A DNA stretch of 64,000 bases from Geminocystis sp. M7585_C2015_104 (GTDB taxonomy: Bacteria > Cyanobacteriota > Cyanobacteriia > Cyanobacteriales > Cyanobacteriaceae), in NCBI GenBank assembly GCA_015295805.1, contig DVEF01000065.1, positions 1 to 64,000 of the forward strand, given 5' to 3'. Shown here in pieces: positions 5,290 to 59,000 of the stretch (the first letter of the stretch is position 1; each line of letters begins with the position of its first letter). Made by a program: the position numbers and the translations under genes. The notes under the pieces are model-generated. The model ran no database searches, had not been told where the DNA came from, and saw only the letters and a program-made list of their open reading frames with translations.

Positions 5290-6195
5290 CTACCATTGGA
5301 CTGCCTTTCTCAACCGGTAACGTAAATAAATAGCAACCCCATTCATAAACAGGGTAAGGAGCACCAAAACGGCACCTGCGGCGGCAGCATTGGCCTGAAA
5401 ATCAGTGCTCGCGCGGGAAATCCAGTTAAACATTTGAATGGGCACCACCGTGAAGGGGGCCTGTAGCCACTGAAAGGATATAAAGGGGAACTTAGAGGTA
5501 AAGGGGGCTTCTGGCAAGAAGGCAATATAGGTGAGGGCTCCCACAGTGATTAGGGGGGCTGTTTCTCCTATGGCCCGGGAGACGGCCACTATTATACCAG
5601 TCAGAATACTACCCAGGGAGTAGGGCAAAACATGATCCCAAATTACCTGCCATTTGCTGGCGCCCACTGCGTAAGCCGCCTCTTTCAAACTGGCGGGGAT
5701 AGCCCTAATGGCCTCCCTGGAGACTACTACTACTGTTGGCAACATCAACAGGGCCACGGTCAAACCCCCTGTTAAGACACTTTCTCCCAGATTCCAGGAT
5801 TGGACAAAAATCCCCAGGGCTACAAGCCCGTAGATAATGGGAGGTACAGCCGCCAGGTTAGTGACATTAACCTCAATTAATCCTGCCAACCAATTGTCCT
5901 TCCCATACTCTTCTAGGTATATCCCAGCAGCTATTCCCACGGGAATAGAAAAAAGGGCAGCCAAGGACATTACCAATACTGTTCCCACCCAGGCTGAGAG
6001 TAGCCCCGCCTCTTTGGCATGACGACTAGGAAAACTCATAAAAAATTGCCAATTGAGCCTCGGCAGTCCATCAATAAACATCCCCGCCGTGAGGCCTAAA
6101 AGGACTATTAGGGCGAAGACAATGAGTGTGACGGCTACAATAGCAAAAATCTTCTCCGCCCACCTTCGGTATTTTAGATTTTCTCTGCTCTCCAT
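5290..6195 (-). CDS. pstA: Phosphate ABC transporter permease PstA, distal copy
   Basis: An inner-membrane permease of about 301 residues with the PstA signature GASKWQVIWDHVLPYSLGSILTG and several hydrophobic spans. An in-frame ATG lies 15 bp upstream at 6210, but the start at 6195 is preceded at about 7 nt by GGAGGT, the best Shine-Dalgarno here, so I choose it. It is the last gene of the pst operon, 38 bp after another pstA, and the two proteins are very similar along their whole length. The pair may form a PstA-PstA' heteromer with PstC or give alternative transporters; the sequence cannot decide. Confidence 0.92.
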   Translation of the reverse strand: MESRENLKYRRWAEKIFAIVAVTLIVFALIVLLGLTAGMFIDGLPRLNWQFFMSFPSRHAKEAGLLSAWVGTVLVMSLAALFSIPVGIAAGIYLEEYGKDNWLAGLIEVNVTNLAAVPPIIYGLVALGIFVQSWNLGESVLTGGLTVALLMLPTVVVVSREAIRAIPASLKEAAYAVGASKWQVIWDHVLPYSLGSILTGIIVAVSRAIGETAPLITVGALTYIAFLPEAPFTSKFPFISFQWLQAPFTVVPIQMFNWISRASTDFQANAAAAGAVLVLLTLFMNGVAIYLRYRLRKAVQW

Positions 6196-6233
6196 GTCCC
6201 CCACCTCCATTCCTCAATACCAAGTAATACAAG

Positions 6234-7157
6234 CTACCACTTGAGACCTTTTCTGAGCCTATAACGGAGATAAATGGCGACACCATTCATCAGGAGAGTC
6301 ATGACTACCAATACTGCCCCTGCGGCTGCGGCGTTTGCTTGGAAAGCTGCTTGAGGTCGCGATACCCAGTTAAACATTTGTATAGGCATCACGGTGAAGG
6401 GAGCCTTTAGCCAGGCAAAGGAGATATAGGGAAATTCTGATTTGAAGGGAGGATCTGGTAGAAAGGCGATAAAGGTCAAAGCCCCGATGGTGATGAGGGG
6501 TGCAGTTTCGCCAATGGCACGGGATAGAGCTACTATTATCCCAGTTAGGATGCTACCCAGGGAATAGGGAAGGAGATGATCCCAAATCACCTGCCACTTG
6601 CTGGCGCCTAGGGCGTAGGCCGCTTCTCGCAGACTGTTAGGAATGGCCTTAATGGCTTCCCTAGTGGCTACCACTATTACTGGCAGAATCAACAAAGACA
6701 GGGTCAACCCCGCCGTCAGTATACTTTCTCCTAGATTCCAATCCTGCACAAATAGCCCCAAAGCCAAAAGCCCATATATGATAGAGGGCACCCCTGCCAG
6801 GTTACTGATGTTGACCTCAATCAGTGCCGCCAGCCAGCCTTTTTTGCCGTACTCCTCCAGGTATATCCCAGAAGCCACGCCGATGGGAATAGCAAACACA
6901 GCCGTCATCAACATTACCACGGCCGTACCCACCCAGGCAGAAAGAATGCCGGCCTCCTCCGCCCTCCTGCTAGGAAAACTGGTAAAAAACTTCCAGCTGA
7001 GGCGGGGCAAGCCGTCTATAAACATTTTCACCGTCAAGGCCAAGAGGGTAAATAGGGCAAAGAAAATCAACAACAGCCCTACAATGGCAAAAATCTGACT
7101 TGCTATCTGACGGCGTTTGATATTCTCCTTAATGTCTTCCAGTTTTAAATTTGTCAT
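6234..7157 (-). CDS. pstA: Phosphate ABC transporter permease PstA, proximal copy
   Basis: A 307-residue inner-membrane permease with the same conserved stretches as its downstream neighbour, including DGLPRLSWKFFTSFPSR near the N-terminus and the EAA-type coupling loop EAAYALGASKWQVIWDHLLP. It should pair with PstC to form the phosphate channel energised by PstB. It begins 11 bp after the pstB stop. The order pstB before pstA differs from the common pstSCAB arrangement. Neither copy shows truncation or loss of the coupling loop, so both look functional. Confidence 0.94.
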   Translation of the reverse strand: MTNLKLEDIKENIKRRQIASQIFAIVGLLLIFFALFTLLALTVKMFIDGLPRLSWKFFTSFPSRRAEEAGILSAWVGTAVVMLMTAVFAIPIGVASGIYLEEYGKKGWLAALIEVNISNLAGVPSIIYGLLALGLFVQDWNLGESILTAGLTLSLLILPVIVVATREAIKAIPNSLREAAYALGASKWQVIWDHLLPYSLGSILTGIIVALSRAIGETAPLITIGALTFIAFLPDPPFKSEFPYISFAWLKAPFTVMPIQMFNWVSRPQAAFQANAAAAGAVLVVMTLLMNGVAIYLRYRLRKGLKW

Positions 7158-7168
7158 ACTACAAGCCC

Positions 7169-7972
7169 TTAGCCTATCTTACCACTGATGTACTCCTGGG
7201 TTTGGGGGTGGGAGGCATTGTTGAAGATGGTCTTGGTGTCGTTGAATTCAATCAGTTCTCCCATATACATGAAGGCGGTATAGTCAGAGAAACGGGCTGC
7301 TTGTTGCATGCTGTGGGTTACAATAATGATTGTCACCTTTTCCTTGAGGGAGACCATTAACTCTTCAATGCTTCTGGTGGCGATGGGGTCCAACGCAGAG
7401 GTCGGCTCATCAAACAAAACGATTTCCGGATCTGTTACTATAGCCCTAGCGATACACAACCTTTGCTGTTGTCCCCCGGAAAGGGCATATGCCGACTCGT
7501 GCAATCTGTCCTTTACCTCATCCCACAGGGCTGCTCCCCTCAGGGCTTCTTCCACTTTTTGGTCAATGTAACTTTTATCTTTAATTCCCCTGACTCTTAG
7601 GCCATAGGCCACATTTTCGTAGATGGACTTGGGGAAGGGATTCGGCTTCTGGAATACCATTGAAATGCGCATCCTCACCTCTATGGGGTCCACCTTGGGG
7701 GAGATGATATTCTCACCATTTACTAGGATGCCCCCTTCATAGCGGTTGCCCGGGTATAGGTCATGCATTCGATTGAAGCATCTAAGTAGTGTGGTCTTTC
7801 CACAGCCGGAGGGGCCAATGAGGGCAGTGACTTTATTAGCGGGAATATAGAAGTTGATGTTTTTCAGGGCATGAAAGCCGCCATAAAAGAAATTTAAGTC
7901 CACCACCTCTGCTACTACGGGAGGCCTTTCGGACACCATGGATTGTCCTTGTTCTTGTTCTACCATTGTCAC
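7169..7972 (-). CDS. pstB: Phosphate ABC transporter ATP-binding protein PstB
   Basis: A 267-residue cytoplasmic ATPase. Walker A is GPSGCGKTT (53-61), the ABC signature is LSGGQQQRL, and Walker B is [12 protein letters not shown]. The PstB-specific stretch [20 protein letters not shown] is also present. It powers phosphate import by the PstS-PstC-PstA complex and, in many bacteria, takes part in transporter-dependent control of the Pho two-component system. It lies between pstC and the two pstA genes. Only one pstB is present for two pstA copies, so both permeases must use this subunit or one encoded elsewhere. Confidence 0.97.
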
Positions 7973-8026
7973 CTATCTCCTCTACTTTAAGCAGGTTGCC
8001 ACAACAGGGTCTCTTTTTACAGTGTA

Positions 8027-8956
8027 CTAGTAAATTTCACGATAGCGTTTAGCTAACATGTAGCCTATAATGTTCAGGACCAGAGTCATCACAAACAGGG
8101 CCAAGCCTGCGGCGAAGATGGTCTGGTGCTCCAAAGTCCCACGAGGCAAGTCCCCCAAGGACACCTGTACTATGTATGCGGTGACGGTGGCTGCTGACTT
8201 GAAGGGGTTAAAGGTGAAGTTCGGTTGTAACCCTGCGGCCACTGCCACAATCATTGTCTCCCCCACTGCCCGGGATGCCGCCAGGATGTAGGAAGCAACA
8301 ATACCGGAGATGGCGGCCGGGAATACAACCCTTATTGCCGTTTGTAGTTTAGTTGCTCCCATGGCAAAAGACCCCTCCCTCAGAGCCACTGGCACTGCCC
8401 TCATGGCGTCCTCACTCAGGGAACTTACCAGAGGCACGATCATCAACCCCATTACTATTCCTGCACTTAGCATATTAAACCCTGGCAGTTCCGGGAACAC
8501 TTTCTGCAACAATGGAGTTACAAACAGGAGGGCAAAATAACCATAAACCACAGTGGGAATTGCCGCCAACAATTCCAGTATTGGCTTACAAATTTCCCTT
8601 ATTCCTGGCGGGGCGAACTCACTCAGGTAGATAGCTATTATGGTGCCCATGGGGACTGAAACCACCAGGGCTATGGCGGAGGTGGTGATAGTGCCTGACA
8701 ACAGGGCCCAAATGCCGTAACGGGGCTCAGCAAAAAGGGGTGTCCACTCCGTGCCCGTTATGAATTCCCACAAAGATACTTTTTGGAAGAATAAAAACGA
8801 CTCCTCTATCAGGAGAAAAATAATGCCAACAGTGGTCAAAACCGAGACACAGGCCGCCAAAAACAGTACTACTTCTATGGCCTTTTCTTTTATGTCTCTA
8901 ATTCTCCTGCTGGCCGAGACTTTTGTAAACGAAAATACAGTTTCCGACTTTGCCAT
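8027..8956 (-). CDS. pstC: Phosphate ABC transporter permease PstC
   Basis: A 309-residue membrane protein with about six hydrophobic spans. PstC features include GTEWTPLFAEPRYGIWALLSGT, the loop EGSFAMGATKLQTAIRVVFPAA and SRAVGETMIVAVAAG. It partners PstA in the inner membrane. An 82-bp gap separates it from pstS and contains a strong hairpin with a U-tract, so the permease genes are probably transcribed at a fraction of the pstS level. Confidence 0.95.
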   Translation of the reverse strand: MAKSETVFSFTKVSASRRIRDIKEKAIEVVLFLAACVSVLTTVGIIFLLIEESFLFFQKVSLWEFITGTEWTPLFAEPRYGIWALLSGTITTSAIALVVSVPMGTIIAIYLSEFAPPGIREICKPILELLAAIPTVVYGYFALLFVTPLLQKVFPELPGFNMLSAGIVMGLMIVPLVSSLSEDAMRAVPVALREGSFAMGATKLQTAIRVVFPAAISGIVASYILAASRAVGETMIVAVAAGLQPNFTFNPFKSAATVTAYIVQVSLGDLPRGTLEHQTIFAAGLALFVMTLVLNIIGYMLAKRYREIY

Positions 8957-9001
8957 TGTTTCCTACGGGGGGTTGCTAATGGGACTCAAACCACGCCATT
9001 T

Positions 9002-9025
9002 AAAAAGGGGGGGACAGTACCCCCC
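9002..9025 (-). terminator. Intrinsic terminator/attenuator between pstS and pstC
   Basis: On the minus strand the RNA would form six G-C pairs (GGGGGG/CCCCCC) around a six-base loop TACTGT, followed directly by five U. This is a textbook intrinsic terminator placed inside an operon, downstream of pstS and upstream of pstC. It probably lets most transcripts stop after pstS, giving excess binding protein over permease. Confidence 0.85.
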
Positions 9026-9038
9026 TGGCTCTATGGTA

Positions 9039-10040
9039 CTACAGGCCGGCCCTTAGAGGAACTCTGCCAACTTCTCCCTTGTCGAAACGGGCTTGGGCTT
9101 TCCTGTAGTCTTCTGCCGGCAAGGGCACATATCCTACCTGTCTGGACAACTTAGCGGCATTCTGGAGGTAGAATTTTACAAATTCTTTCACTTCTGGCTT
9201 GTTGGCAGAGGCTTTGCTCACGTAGATATACAGAGGACGGGACAGGGGCTTGTAGCTGCCGTTTAGTACGTTCTGAGCGCTTGGCAATACTGGTTTCTTG
9301 GTTTCTGGGTTGACAATGGCTAGGGCTTTCAGTTTATCGGTGTTTTCCTCATAGTAGGCGAAACCGAAATAGCCCATCCCGTTGGGGTCTCTGGCCACCC
9401 CTTGTACTAACACGTTATCATCTTCGCTGGGGGTGAAGTCGCTTCTGATGTCATTGTTTTTGCCCAGAACGGCTTCCTTGAAGTAGTCGTAAGTGCCGGA
9501 GTCTAAACCCGGACCATAGAGTTTAAACTCGGCATTGGGCCATTTGGGGTTGACCTGATTCCATCTTTTTATGCCTTTTTGTTGGCTTTCCTTACTCCAA
9601 ATAGTTCTCAATTCTTCAACGGTAATAGAGTCGATGGCCTTATTGTTTTTATTAACCACTACCGTCAGAGCGTCGTATGCCACAGGCAATTCTATGAATT
9701 CTACCCCAGATTTTTGACAGGCTTCTATTTCTTCTTTCTTTATGGGACGGGAGGCGTTTGAAATATCTGTTCTCACACCAGGGTTACTGCTGCAGAATTT
9801 TTCAAAACCCCCACCGGTGCCAGATACCCCCACTGTCACCCTAACGCTGCCTTTTTTCTGTTTTTGGAATTCTTCCGCCACTGCCTCGGTTATGGGGAAT
9901 ACGGTGCTAGACCCGTCGATTTTGATGGTTTTTGCCCCCTGAGAGTCAGCTTCTTTTTGCATCACACCCACCGCCAGGGCCACTGCGGTGGCGGTAGCCG
10001 CTACAACACCCATCATCCTGCTTTTGGTTTTCATAGCCAC
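9039..10040 (-). CDS. pstS: Phosphate-binding protein PstS
   Basis: A 333-residue periplasmic phosphate-binding protein. A hydrophobic signal region spans about residues 8-27. Phosphate-contact motifs are GSST (43-46), SGTGGGF (73-79) and the later [22 protein letters not shown] is typical of the family. No lipobox is seen, so it is probably soluble in the periplasm or loosely cell-wall associated. It is the first gene of the pst operon and lies directly behind a Pho box. The C-terminal half of the kinase gene at 55364-57298 resembles this protein. Confidence 0.96.
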
Positions 10041-10123
10041 TCCTTTTTTGGTTATGTGTTTTTCTCGCCTTTAAGACTTTTGTTTTTTACTTATTTGTTT
10101 CCGAACTGAGTCTACCTCGTTAA

Positions 10124-10164
10124 AATTAAATCCAGTTTAATCTAAGGTTAAATTTAGGTTAAAA
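10124..10164 (-). promoter_or_regulatory. Pho box (SphR/PhoB-type direct repeats) upstream of pstS
   Basis: On the minus strand there are three good 8-bp units, TTTTAACC, ATTTAACC and GATTAAAC, plus a weaker fourth, ATTTAATT. They are separated by exactly 3 bp, giving an 11-bp period. This matches the known cyanobacterial Pho box (YTTAAYYW repeats with 3-bp spacers) bound by SphR. The array ends about 84 bp upstream of the pstS start codon, and its distal unit overlaps the last codons of the upstream glycosyltransferase gene. The operon is therefore predicted to be induced by phosphate starvation. Confidence 0.88.
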
Positions 10165-54616: not shown

Positions 54617-55327
54617 TTAATTGCCTGGGAATCCTACATACCAAAAGTAGGTTACCATTGGGATCACTGTAGCCAGTACCAGCAGTACAATTGTCCACAG
54701 CATAGCACTACGGGTATCTGTCTCCTCGGCAGAGGCAAAGGTGCTTTCGATGTTAATCTCTTCCATTTTAGGCGCCCCTGGGTCCTGTTTGCCTGACAAG
54801 ACAGCCACCAGACGATTGCCAGCGGAGATTAATGCTTGGTTGTATTGTAAATCCTTAAGGAAATAGGGGAAGGTCTCATGGACTATACTATCTCTGATTT
54901 CTGGTGTAAGCAGATTAACAGTGTCATCTCCTTGGGCAATGGCGGTGCGGTTGCCAAGGGTGTCTACTACTATCAATACCTGATTTTTGGCATCGGCTGG
55001 GGAGGGATACCAGGTTTGGAATATTTCCCTTGCTAGGGAATCTATAGTCTGTCCGTAATCAAGACGCTCTATGACCACCATTCTCACTTCCTTGCCAGTA
55101 TTTTCCGCTAGCTGACGCAACATGTTAGACAGTTGTCCTTCGGTAGCACGACTGATTACATCCGCTTCATCCACAACCCACAAGTTTTCCCCCGCCGCTA
55201 CCATGGGCAAGTCGTAAACCCCCGTCGCCCTAGCTTCCTTTACAGCCACGTTTAGGAGGAATAACAGGGAGATAAAGACAGTAAAAACAATCCTTGTCGC
55301 CTTATTCATACCAACAGTTGTCCCCAT
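54617..55327 (-). CDS. psb32: Photosystem II repair protein Psb32 (TPM domain)
   Basis: A 236-residue protein with a signal peptide (hydrophobic IVFTVFISLLFLLNVAV, cleavage near ARA), a TPM/DUF477 domain from about 45 to 180 (DEADVISRATEGQLSNMLRQLAENTGKEV; QVLIVVDTLGNRTAIAQGDD) and a C-terminal transmembrane helix (LWTIVLLVLATVIPMVTYFW). This layout is that of Psb32, a thylakoid-lumen-facing protein that protects photosystem II and speeds its repair. An internal ATG at 55309 is an alternative start. It follows the receptor kinase gene by 37 bp on the same strand. Confidence 0.92.
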   Translation of the reverse strand: MGTTVGMNKATRIVFTVFISLLFLLNVAVKEARATGVYDLPMVAAGENLWVVDEADVISRATEGQLSNMLRQLAENTGKEVRMVVIERLDYGQTIDSLAREIFQTWYPSPADAKNQVLIVVDTLGNRTAIAQGDDTVNLLTPEIRDSIVHETFPYFLKDLQYNQALISAGNRLVAVLSGKQDPGAPKMEEINIESTFASAEETDTRSAMLWTIVLLVLATVIPMVTYFWYVGFPGN

Positions 55328-55363: not shown

Positions 55364-57298
55364 TTAAAAGGAGCGAATGGGAATAAAGCCAGCCTTTTCG
55401 ATTAGTTTTTGTCCTTCGTCACTCAACAAGAGATTGACATAAGCCTTTCCTGCCCTTGCTTGTAGACTGTCATCGTCTCTATATACCACAAAAAGGCGTC
55501 TCACTAGGGGGTATTCCTCATTCCTAAAGGCGTCATAGTCGGCAATTCTACCCTGTTGACGACACTGTTGGGAGGTGGGCAATTCTCCCTGATAGGGTTT
55601 AATCAAGGGGGAGGAGTCGTCTCGGGCGATGGCTAAGGGTTTAACATCACATTCTGGGATAAGATTCGCTGCCGAAGCCAAATAAATACTACCCCCTTGT
55701 TTTATGTCTTCCGAGGCAATGTGTTTAACCGCTTCCGCTGGGGTGGGAAAGGTTTGGACAGTTTTAGCAAGGGGCATATCCCCCATAATTTCCTCCTTCA
55801 GGATAACAGTGGCGCCACTTTCCGAGGGGGGAGTGTATGGTTTAATGGTGGCATTAGGCCCTCCTAGCTGCCGCCAGTTAGTGATTTTGCCCCCGTATAT
55901 CTGTCGTATCTGACCTATAGTTAGGCCTTCCACCCCTAAGTTATAGTTTACTACAAATACAACACCATCAATGGCTACAGGTGTCTGACCAAGTTTAATA
56001 CCTCTTTCATTGGCCTCTTCTATTTCACTTTTTTTCAGGGGGCGGGAAGACTGTGCTAAAGTTAGTTTATCATCCAATAGCATGGCTATACCCGTGCCCG
56101 AGCCCGGAGGCTTATTTAAGGGAAGTTTTTCGGTCAGATGAAACTGAGGCACCACCTCTTTTAGACGGGGGTTGAGGGTTTTATTTATTTTCTTCCAGGC
56201 TGTGCTACCTCCGTAAAACCAAGTGCCCTCAGGTATATCAGGAATATGGGCAAAACACTGCCATAGATTCTCCTTCGTGTTTTTGATGACCGTCTCCTGA
56301 CTTCTTTGACTGGGGCATTCTTTCACTCCAGTTACCGGGAGGGAGAAGATGTTAACGGTTAGTTTTGGCAGCAACCAGACTGCAAACAAGGCTACGGCTG
56401 CCGTTGCCGCCAGTGGCGTTAAAATGGGTTTGTAGGCATCTAGTGGCAGGGGCAAAAGGGGTTTTTTCCTTAGACTTTCTACTGCCCTTAGCATCTCTTC
56501 AGCAGTAGCATAGCGCTTTTGAGGGTCACATTCAATGGCCTTATTGATAATTTTCTTTAAGCCGTTACTGACATCCGGCGCATAATTGGACCATAACAGT
56601 TTAAGGGAGAGAGGGTCTCTTTCTATGGTATCAGGTCTTCTACGGGTGAGAAGGAAGACACATACCATTCCTAGGGAGTACAAGTCCGAATTATATGACA
56701 CCTTGCCTGAGAGTTGTTCGTGGGGCATATAACTAGGTGTGCCAATTACCAGACTGCTTTTTGCCTCTTCTCCTCCCCCCTCCTCACTACTGGTGTCGCT
56801 ACTCATTAATTCTTTTACCGCCCCGTAGTCAATTAAAACCGGTTTTTGATCCCTTTTCCTGATAATTATGTTTTCTGGTTTAATGTCTCGGTGGATAATC
56901 CCCCGCTTGTGCACATAGTCCAGTACTGGTAAAATGTCCAACAGTAGGTCTATTACAAAATCCTCAGTGACTGGACCTTGTTGTACTATTTGTAGAAGCG
57001 TTTTTCCTTCTATGTATTCTTGTACCAGAAAGAATTTATTGTTAAGGGAAAAATAGGCGTAAAGCTGAGGAATTTGTTTATTATCCGCACATAATTTCTC
57101 CAGGGTTTCTGCCTCTTTCCGGAAACGCTTTTCTAGGGATTTTCGGTATTTTTCGTTGGTAATACTGGGTTTAAACTGTTTGATAACACATATGCGTCTG
57201 GAGGGAAGGTGGGTGTCTTCTGCCAAATATGTCTTCCCAAAACCCCCTTGCCCCAAAATCTCCTTGATGAGATAACGTCCATATAGGAGGGTAGACAT
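55364..57298 (-). CDS. Transmembrane Ser/Thr kinase with extracytoplasmic PstS-like domain
   Basis: A 644-residue receptor kinase. The N-terminal Hanks-type kinase has the Gly loop GQGGFGKTY (16-24), Lys40, HRDIKPEN (136-143) and DYG in place of DFG (157-159). A transmembrane helix spans about 292-312. The C-terminal 340-644 is a phosphate-binding-protein domain: GGSTA (363-367), SGTG (400-403) and SESGAT (492-497) align with the phosphate-contact motifs of this window's PstS, and SRPLKKSEIEEANERGIK parallels its [18 protein letters not shown]. It probably senses phosphate or a similar anion outside and phosphorylates targets inside. It precedes psb32. Confidence 0.93.
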   Translation of the reverse strand: MSTLLYGRYLIKEILGQGGFGKTYLAEDTHLPSRRICVIKQFKPSITNEKYRKSLEKRFRKEAETLEKLCADNKQIPQLYAYFSLNNKFFLVQEYIEGKTLLQIVQQGPVTEDFVIDLLLDILPVLDYVHKRGIIHRDIKPENIIIRKRDQKPVLIDYGAVKELMSSDTSSEEGGGEEAKSSLVIGTPSYMPHEQLSGKVSYNSDLYSLGMVCVFLLTRRRPDTIERDPLSLKLLWSNYAPDVSNGLKKIINKAIECDPQKRYATAEEMLRAVESLRKKPLLPLPLDAYKPILTPLAATAAVALFAVWLLPKLTVNIFSLPVTGVKECPSQRSQETVIKNTKENLWQCFAHIPDIPEGTWFYGGSTAWKKINKTLNPRLKEVVPQFHLTEKLPLNKPPGSGTGIAMLLDDKLTLAQSSRPLKKSEIEEANERGIKLGQTPVAIDGVVFVVNYNLGVEGLTIGQIRQIYGGKITNWRQLGGPNATIKPYTPPSESGATVILKEEIMGDMPLAKTVQTFPTPAEAVKHIASEDIKQGGSIYLASAANLIPECDVKPLAIARDDSSPLIKPYQGELPTSQQCRQQGRIADYDAFRNEEYPLVRRLFVVYRDDDSLQARAGKAYVNLLLSDEGQKLIEKAGFIPIRSF

Positions 57299-57458
57299 AG
57301 TTTTTTGTTTATTTGGTGAGGGTTTTACCTCATTATGTTACATCAGCCTCAGAATCTGGCGGGATTTGTGTGTTGTAGAATACATGCTCTTTTGGTGACT
57401 GATAACAGTGGTTACCATAAAATGGCATATTGGTATGACAGTCTAGTAATCTGGATAT

Positions 57459-59000
57459 ATGATTCGCCGCAGAAAATCCCTCAGCGATTCTAAGATTCCT
57501 CTTGTTTCTTCCCTTTTAAACCATTACCTGGACAGTCTAATTATCAGTAAAATATTTGCCATAATTTCTGCCTTGAATTTCGGTTTAGTCATTTTTGACA
57601 TTACCTATATCCCCCTGAGAGATATTTGGCTAAATGGAAAAATTACTTTGGGTAAATTCAAAATGGGGCCTTACGAATACAAAGGAATTAATCTGAAAAT
57701 TATCCCCACCTCTGTTAGCAATTTTCTCGTGCAATACGATTTAATTAAAGGTATTCAACCTCATCGAGACACTCAGGCTTTTTTGGATAAGTACAACTCC
57801 TTGAAACAGACAATATATGCCAAAGGTTTAGAAAGTCCAGAAGCAGAGGCTATCATAGCAGAATTGAGACAAGCCAGTGACGAGATGATAACCAGTAATC
57901 CCTTCGCCCTAGCTGGCAAAACTGGCACTTTAGAGACTATAAAAAACCGCATGAGGGATTATATGAAGAATTATATCTACAACCCTCAGGATTCTTCCAG
58001 AATTGCTTTTACTTCTTTCTGGAACAGAGAATTTCTCGCAAAGAATACCCAGGAAAAATTGAGATTTTTTGACAATCAAATCATTCCTCTCATTAGGACT
58101 AACTTTTTTCGTCCTTTCAGCGAGAGTGGGGAATTCGTGGACTATTTCGGCTTGATTGATTTTCCTTTTATAGCAGTAATACTTGCTGATTTTGTTATTC
58201 GTTGTTTTGGAATTAGTCTACGGTATCGTGGGGTTAGTTTTAAAGATGCTATCCTTTGGCGTTGGTATGATTTAATTTTCCTTTTACCTCGTTATCGTTG
58301 GCTGAGAATTGTTCCAGTTATGATTCGTTTAGATGAGTCAAAAATTGTTAGCCTAGAAGACATAAAGAAACAGGCAAGTCAAGGCTTTGTGGCAACCGTC
58401 GCCGAAGACATAACAGAAATAGTTGTTTTAAGAATCTTCAACCAAGTCCAAAAACTAATTGAAACTGGCAGCATAGAAAGACTGGTAATCTCCCAGAATC
58501 CCGAGAGGGAATATATAGATTTAAATGACATCAACGAAGTAGCAGAAATCTCGAAAATTTTGGTAAATCTCATAGTAGAAGAAATCCTGCCCCAGATTCG
58601 AAGTGAAGTAGAGGCCCTGTTGGCATATATCCTAGAAAAAACCCTAAAAGAGTCACCTATTTACAACAACATTATCTTCCTAAACGATGGGGAGAAAATA
58701 GTCAAGGAAATAAGTCAAAAAACGGCAGCTGCTGTCTATAGGGCCCTGGGGGAAACTTTAAACAAATTGAGGGAAGAGGACAAAGTTTTTGAGCAACATC
58801 TGACGAAAATATTTGGGAAAATAGGAGATACAATTAATTTGAGGCCAAGGGCAAAACAGGATATAAACAAAATAGAGGGGTTATTGGTAGCCCTATTGGA
58901 GGAAGTGAAGGTCAATTATATCATGAGTCTAGCGGCGGAAGACATAGAAAGTATTTTGGACGAAAAACGAGCCCTTTTAAGCGGTACAAAACGAGAATAA
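57459..59000 (+). CDS. Large conserved membrane protein with voltage-sensor-like segment
   Basis: A 513-residue protein of unknown function. One hydrophobic span lies near residues 30-50, and a cluster at about 230-290 (FPFIAVILADFVIRCFGISL; WRWYDLIFLLPRYRWLRIVPVMIRL) resembles the S2-S4 region of voltage-gated channels, with an acidic-Arg pair and evenly spaced arginines. No pore loop follows; the C-terminal 220 residues are helical and cytoplasmic. It could be a channel-related regulator. It is divergent from the receptor kinase, and its stop directly abuts that of rlmN. Confidence 0.82.
   Translation: MIRRRKSLSDSKIPLVSSLLNHYLDSLIISKIFAIISALNFGLVIFDITYIPLRDIWLNGKITLGKFKMGPYEYKGINLKIIPTSVSNFLVQYDLIKGIQPHRDTQAFLDKYNSLKQTIYAKGLESPEAEAIIAELRQASDEMITSNPFALAGKTGTLETIKNRMRDYMKNYIYNPQDSSRIAFTSFWNREFLAKNTQEKLRFFDNQIIPLIRTNFFRPFSESGEFVDYFGLIDFPFIAVILADFVIRCFGISLRYRGVSFKDAILWRWYDLIFLLPRYRWLRIVPVMIRLDESKIVSLEDIKKQASQGFVATVAEDITEIVVLRIFNQVQKLIETGSIERLVISQNPEREYIDLNDINEVAEISKILVNLIVEEILPQIRSEVEALLAYILEKTLKESPIYNNIIFLNDGEKIVKEISQKTAAAVYRALGETLNKLREEDKVFEQHLTKIFGKIGDTINLRPRAKQDINKIEGLLVALLEEVKVNYIMSLAAEDIESILDEKRALLSGTKRE

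Follow-up and report, generated by a model that had tools for sequence, protein, structure and literature searches.

A single gene in the window (the whole 64,000-nucleotide stretch of DNA analysed here) encodes a Hanks Ser/Thr kinase, a predicted transmembrane helix and a PstS-type binding domain, and we consider it probable that its product is a single-pass receptor Ser/Thr kinase whose activity is controlled by a ligand through the PstS-type domain. What bacterial Ser/Thr kinases respond to is in most cases an outstanding question (PMC6069109). A kinase-linked binding domain of well-understood fold, present in many cyanobacterial families, offers a concrete pocket and would identify the signal of a widespread kinase class, and the fused gene is a handle in which sensor and kinase are held in one purifiable protein. 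The fusion and the gene pairs described below point to a little-noticed family of nutrient-receptor kinases in cyanobacteria, with phosphate as a candidate signal.

In the arrangement we propose, the N-terminal kinase would lie in the cytoplasm, the single helix would cross the inner membrane and the two-lobed PstS-type domain would face the periplasm, a topology suggested by hydropathy, by basic residues on the kinase side and by a conserved cysteine pair in the binding domain. Judging from the fold, a small ligand would close the two lobes, and this closure, probably via the pairing of two receptor chains, would turn kinase activity toward cytoplasmic substrates up or down. That closure may control the kinase is suggested by gene linkage, by repeated fusions and by the precedent of GlnH-GlnX-PknG (PMC6069109).

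The fused protein and its domains

The fusion gene (55364..57298, reverse strand) is a single open frame of 644 aa. A preliminary description of this DNA had set out that a single chain combines a kinase, a membrane helix and a domain of PstS fold, and this is borne out by Pfam, hydropathy and structural comparison. Another genome of the genus (G362/L039) has the fused gene between the same flanks, its kinase part being 98% and its PBP part 87-88% identical to those of the window; the open frame is therefore not an assembly artefact. An artefact or chance match is ruled out by the Pfam cut-offs, the structure and this sister genome taken together. A viral origin was rejected, as a viral scan found no relatives, and plasmids carry only distant copies (at most 32% identity).

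The kinase domain (residues 11-270; 56489..57268, reverse strand) matches Pfam Pkinase with an E-value of 1.7e-37 and 129.7 bits, against a cut-off of 31.7. Its best solved relative is PknB (E about 2e-26), whose fold it also matches, and the full catalytic set of K40, E62, D138, N143 and D157 aligns with PknB residues. Its motifs comprise the G-loop GQGGFG (16-21), K40, E62, HRDIKPEN (136-143) and, at residues 157-159, the sequence DYG in place of DFG, just as first described. Phosphotransfer activity is predicted from the sequence. The Phe of DFG is 97.9% conserved among cyanobacterial Ser/Thr kinases (PMC2176072); DYG is a rare variant of the motif and counts against the receptor-kinase reading. 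Pfam gives no PASTA match in the fusion protein, and the score with NF033483 is 144 bits against a cut-off of 450. Beyond the kinase, a basic RKK at 277-279 precedes the predicted transmembrane helix (residues 292-310; 56369..56425, reverse strand), which has a hydropathy of 2.19 over 19 residues and is the sole such segment of the protein.

The PstS-type extracytoplasmic domain (residues 351-644; 55367..56248, reverse strand) matches PBP_like_2 over residues 364-628 (E 3.4e-27, 96.3 bits against a cut-off of 27). Structure prediction, recommended in the preliminary description, was run on residues 351-644 and yielded a PstS fold: the AlphaFold2 model, built with 61 homologues, has a mean pLDDT of 94.6 and a pTM of 0.88, and its top structural matches are phosphate receptors, led by 1twy (Z 26.8; rmsd 2.1 over 240 residues), 4omb (26.1), 4gd5 (25.8) and 4q8r (25.6). 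A full-length model is confident over the kinase and over the PBP, and of low confidence in the membrane and linker stretch at 281-345. Local alignment of the domain with the window's own PstS gives 33% identity over 104 residues (E 2e-14) and includes the SRP-KK-EIE block that had been noted as common to both, reading SRPLKKSEIE in PstS. Cysteines at the positions of C550 and C579 (55562..55651, reverse strand) occur in 192 and 191 of 193 family members, respectively, and are lacking in the window's PstS; the pair fits an oxidising compartment and is likely to form a disulphide.

An anchored binding-protein family with many partners

The binding domain is a member of a family of cyanobacterial binding proteins anchored through a single TM (TM-PBPs). 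Matches were found in 266 of 390 cyanobacterial genomes, and relatives of the domain are encoded by 472 stretches of the genome collection, in a survey biased toward the PBPs closest to that of the window. The typical relative has about 360 residues; one N-terminal membrane anchor is present in 158 of 165 distinct unfused copies, and a lipobox in one. For 94 of these 165, a Ser/Thr kinase gene lies on the same strand no more than three genes upstream, and at this distance none (0/165) has a kinase gene downstream or on the opposite strand. The kinase is directly adjacent in 56 copies, many with gaps below 50 bp, and counted per locus the pairing holds in 76 of 142, across many families. Most paired kinases have four C-terminal TM segments (65/85) and a cysteine-rich prefix (82/85). 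A survey of kinase-PstS fusions and their neighbours, as the preliminary description had advised, has thus revealed both conserved gene pairs and recurrent fusions.

A LysR gene precedes the pair for 53 of 77 kinases and is absent from all 66 loci that lack a kinase; we take it to be RbcR/CbbR-like from sequence likeness, with an NCBIfam CbbR score below the cut-off. Many pairs adjoin a Peripla_BP_6 protein. A conserved run (L183 3125-5779, L041, L073 and many more) consists of this LysR, a multi-TM kinase with the 4-Cys prefix, one or two TM-PBPs and Peripla_BP_6, and at about 40 loci an ArgS-related (NrtL-like) protein is encoded two genes downstream of the PBP.

The survey yielded four kinase-PBP fusions: two from genomes of the window's genus, L037 from G319 and L195 from a Chroococcidiopsidaceae MAG. 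In the kinase tree L195 falls among the operon kinases and L037 beside a lineage of CHASE2 kinases. The window pair groups there with L255 and L232 (SH-aLRT 83), outside the operon-kinase cluster; neither L255 nor L232 has a PBP domain. In the PBP tree the window pair sits in a 98% group with the CHAT-PBPs L146 and L035 (Moorena, LEGE 07170), which also holds the kinase-linked L135. Since the four fusions occupy three separate places in both trees, the joining of kinase and PBP apparently happened three separate times. An origin by fusion of the usual gene pair where it stood was rejected for the window gene, both halves of which lie outside the operon groups; such an event would fit L195, because its kinase is within the operon cluster.

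The TM-PBP module is not confined to kinases, being also joined to CHAT domains (seven Pfam-verified cases), a caspase domain (L316) and TPR (L211). The CHAT-TM-PBP fusions are L036 (208-4022, preceded by genes for an HTH protein and a DUF1822 protein), L143, L144, L146, L167, L177 and L191, and the L316 gene (1968-4046, forward strand) encodes a Peptidase_C14-TM-PBP protein of 693 aa. The count of 24 'long' copies is an upper figure, as the 500 aa frame of L040 resembles a frame run-on and not a fusion; in L038 and L317 Pfam recognises the PBP but nothing in the N-terminal part. Because it has repeatedly been joined through one TM to unlike cytoplasmic domains, the PBP module is most likely a reusable extracytoplasmic sensor. 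A far broader proposal, which we regard as rather unlikely, is that one PstS-derived module serves as a general sensor wired through recurrent gene fusion to kinases, CHAT proteins, caspase-like proteases and TPR proteins, such that external phosphate, or an anion like it, would directly drive Ser/Thr phosphorylation together with proteolytic or cell-death programmes, outside the two-component SphS-SphR pathway.

Ligand and possible roles

E. coli PstS contacts phosphate through T10, F11, S38, D56, R135, S139, G140 and T141 (PMC10846223), contacts have likewise been described for SAR11 PstS (PMC12421899), and by alignment the fusion PBP retains four of the pocket Ser/Thr positions, S365, T366, S400 and S418. 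The first two lie in loop 1 (GGST 363-366; 56201..56212, this and the following loops on the reverse strand) and are kept in almost all of the 193 family members; the conserved S400 is in loop 2 (GSGTG 399-403; 56090..56104); and S418, in loop 3 (SSR 417-419; 56042..56050), takes the place of D56, where many PstS also have Ser. Loop 4 (TPPSESGAT 489-497; 55808..55834), aligned to 4q8r and the family, differs: the Arg position, that of Arg125 in 4q8r (PMC12421899), is occupied by Pro490, and S494-G495-A496-T497 stand where SGT would be. Of the correspondence between three loops and those of PstS that had been claimed earlier, the Ser/Thr residues are kept, but the third loop, SESGAT, can be matched only by a T-to-A change or a one-residue insertion and comes with the exchange of Arg for Pro. 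An anion pocket is likely on this evidence, and phosphate is a possible ligand.

An oxyanion is the most likely kind of ligand, and phosphate leads the candidates, with a chance that we would put somewhat short of even. The original proposal that the protein couples external phosphate to Ser/Thr phosphorylation is strengthened in its sensor part, by the gene pairs and the repeated fusions, and weakened in its choice of ligand by the Pro in place of Arg and the altered SGT loop. Its further suggestion, that the protein would bypass the SphS-SphR pathway, is conjectural, and the fusion gene lacks the Pho-box array that pstS has. An equally serious contender is that the domain binds something other than phosphate, be it a different oxyanion, a phosphonate, a phosphate ester or some cell-surface ligand, with a pocket re-tooled in the window's subgroup. 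Besides the two loop 4 changes, the same loop reads TAPFNSGAP in L035, the CHAT-PBP of the same clade; the domain scores 124.4 bits with the NCBIfam family for PstS proper (TIGR02136), under its cut-off of 206.6; and the LysR gene ahead of so many paired kinases hints at carbon. The lack of a Pho box before the gene points the same way. The pst operon of the window (5290-10040), 45 kb from the fusion gene and with its own pstS (9039-10040), has just upstream of pstS a perfect Pho-box-like array of 11-bp period, TTTAACCTAAATTTAACCTTAGATTAAACTGGATTTAATTT (10123-10163, reverse strand), and no Pho box was found upstream of the fusion gene (57299-57458) or before the sister gene, so that control by the Pho regulon was rejected. 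The same operon contains two tandem, closely similar pstA-like permease genes (5290-7157, reverse strand; 306 and 307 aa).

Against a ligand other than phosphate stands the fold itself, as the phosphate receptors that match the model span Z scores from 26.8 to 24, some 10 units above tungstate-binding TupA and LysR ligand domains (15-17). Most relatives, moreover, retain the canonical residues: of 94 kinase-linked relatives, 90 have the Arg and 93 a Thr, usually within GGT. Phosphate stays possible even with Arg lost, because a SAR11 PstS with Pro at the Arg position still binds it tightly (PMC12421899) and the window's own PstS (GPG) also lacks the pocket Arg.

The pocket substitutions of the window's subgroup could also be taken to mean that the domain has ceased to bind ligands and acts in protein-protein contact or dimerisation, keeping the kinase in an envelope complex, and a docking unit could equally be joined to as many kinds of cytoplasmic domain. 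We judge this unlikely, given that the pocket Ser/Thr residues are kept in nearly all 193 members, beyond what pure docking would need. That the fusion protein takes part in uptake, handing phosphate to a transporter regulated by the kinase, would agree with the PstS fold but is very improbable: pstC/pstA homologues lie near just one surveyed locus, the pst operon of the window has its own PstS, and a membrane-tethered, kinase-attached domain is poorly suited to shuttling.

The two neighbours of the fusion gene are of differing distribution. Downstream, on the same strand, is a true psb32 (54617..55327, reverse strand; NF047379, 283.7 bits against 160), as the preliminary description had recognised, although the gap is 36 bp and not 37. 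The accompanying suggestion, that external phosphate governs photosystem II repair through the kinase and psb32, is scarcely credible and a functional link was rejected: the adjacency, seen in both genomes of the genus, is confined to them, elsewhere in the family psb32 occurs in genomes that lack the kinase, and the remaining PBP loci of the survey are all without psb32. On the other side is the divergent ORF513 (57459..59000, forward strand), a conserved cyanobacterial membrane-type protein found in 117 of 145 genomes and with no Pfam, NCBIfam or PHROG match. In Thermosynechococcus-like genomes (L055, L060, L063, L064, L077, L079, L084 and L221) a homologue of ORF513 is encoded directly 3' of a TM-PBP gene, a second independent contact that merits attention.

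Comparison with known systems

Control of a Hanks kinase by a binding protein is already known; the family-wide pairing and the common sensor module are, to judge from our searches, undescribed. A 2007 survey of 286 cyanobacterial kinases listed 14 types of additional domain, ANF among them and none of PstS type (PMC2176072), and a 2025 review of cyanobacterial kinases mentions neither PstS nor the terms periplasmic or binding protein (PMC11863333). No paper on a kinase-PstS fusion in cyanobacteria was found in the open-access literature, using partly narrow wording.

Several known proteins share part of the design. The binding domain itself has the fold and most pocket Ser/Thr positions of PstS and Sll0540 (PDB 9l8j, 1twy, 4omb, 4q8r), but is tethered to a kinase, lacks a pstCAB partner, has a changed Arg and SGT and carries the additional cysteine pair. 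The cbSTKI-TM kinases (SpkF slr1225 class; PMC2176072), which resemble the PBP-paired kinases in their several C-terminal TMs, are Ser/Thr kinases paired with the PBP family to which the fusion's domain belongs; with some four TMs and a 4-Cys prefix they differ from the window kinase, which has a single TM, lacks the prefix and lies outside their cluster. Cyanobacterial ANF-domain kinases (alr0344, Ava_2791 and CwatDRAFT_0902; PMC2176072) also combine a kinase with a receptor-type ligand-binding domain, although ANF is of the type I (Peripla_BP_6/LivK-like) fold and not PstS-type.

Outside the cyanobacteria, the PASTA kinases PknB, PrkC and StkP, which include the best kinase match, likewise have a cytoplasmic kinase, one TM and an extracytoplasmic sensor, but theirs consists of peptidoglycan-binding PASTA repeats, which the fusion lacks. 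M. tuberculosis PknD, encoded beside pstS2 (PMC3322341), is another case of a Hanks kinase gene linked to that of a phosphate-binding protein; its own sensor is a beta-propeller, and PstS2 belongs to an uptake system. The closest functional precedent is the GlnH-GlnX-PknG system of Actinobacteria, where the genes are linked (PMC6069109, PMC9769921) and where control of a Hanks kinase by a periplasmic solute-binding protein has been proposed from genetic and structural evidence (PMC6069109). That system consists of three separate proteins with a soluble kinase and an amino-acid-binding GlnH, whereas in cyanobacteria one chain, or two genes, would bring the kinase together with a PstS-type domain.
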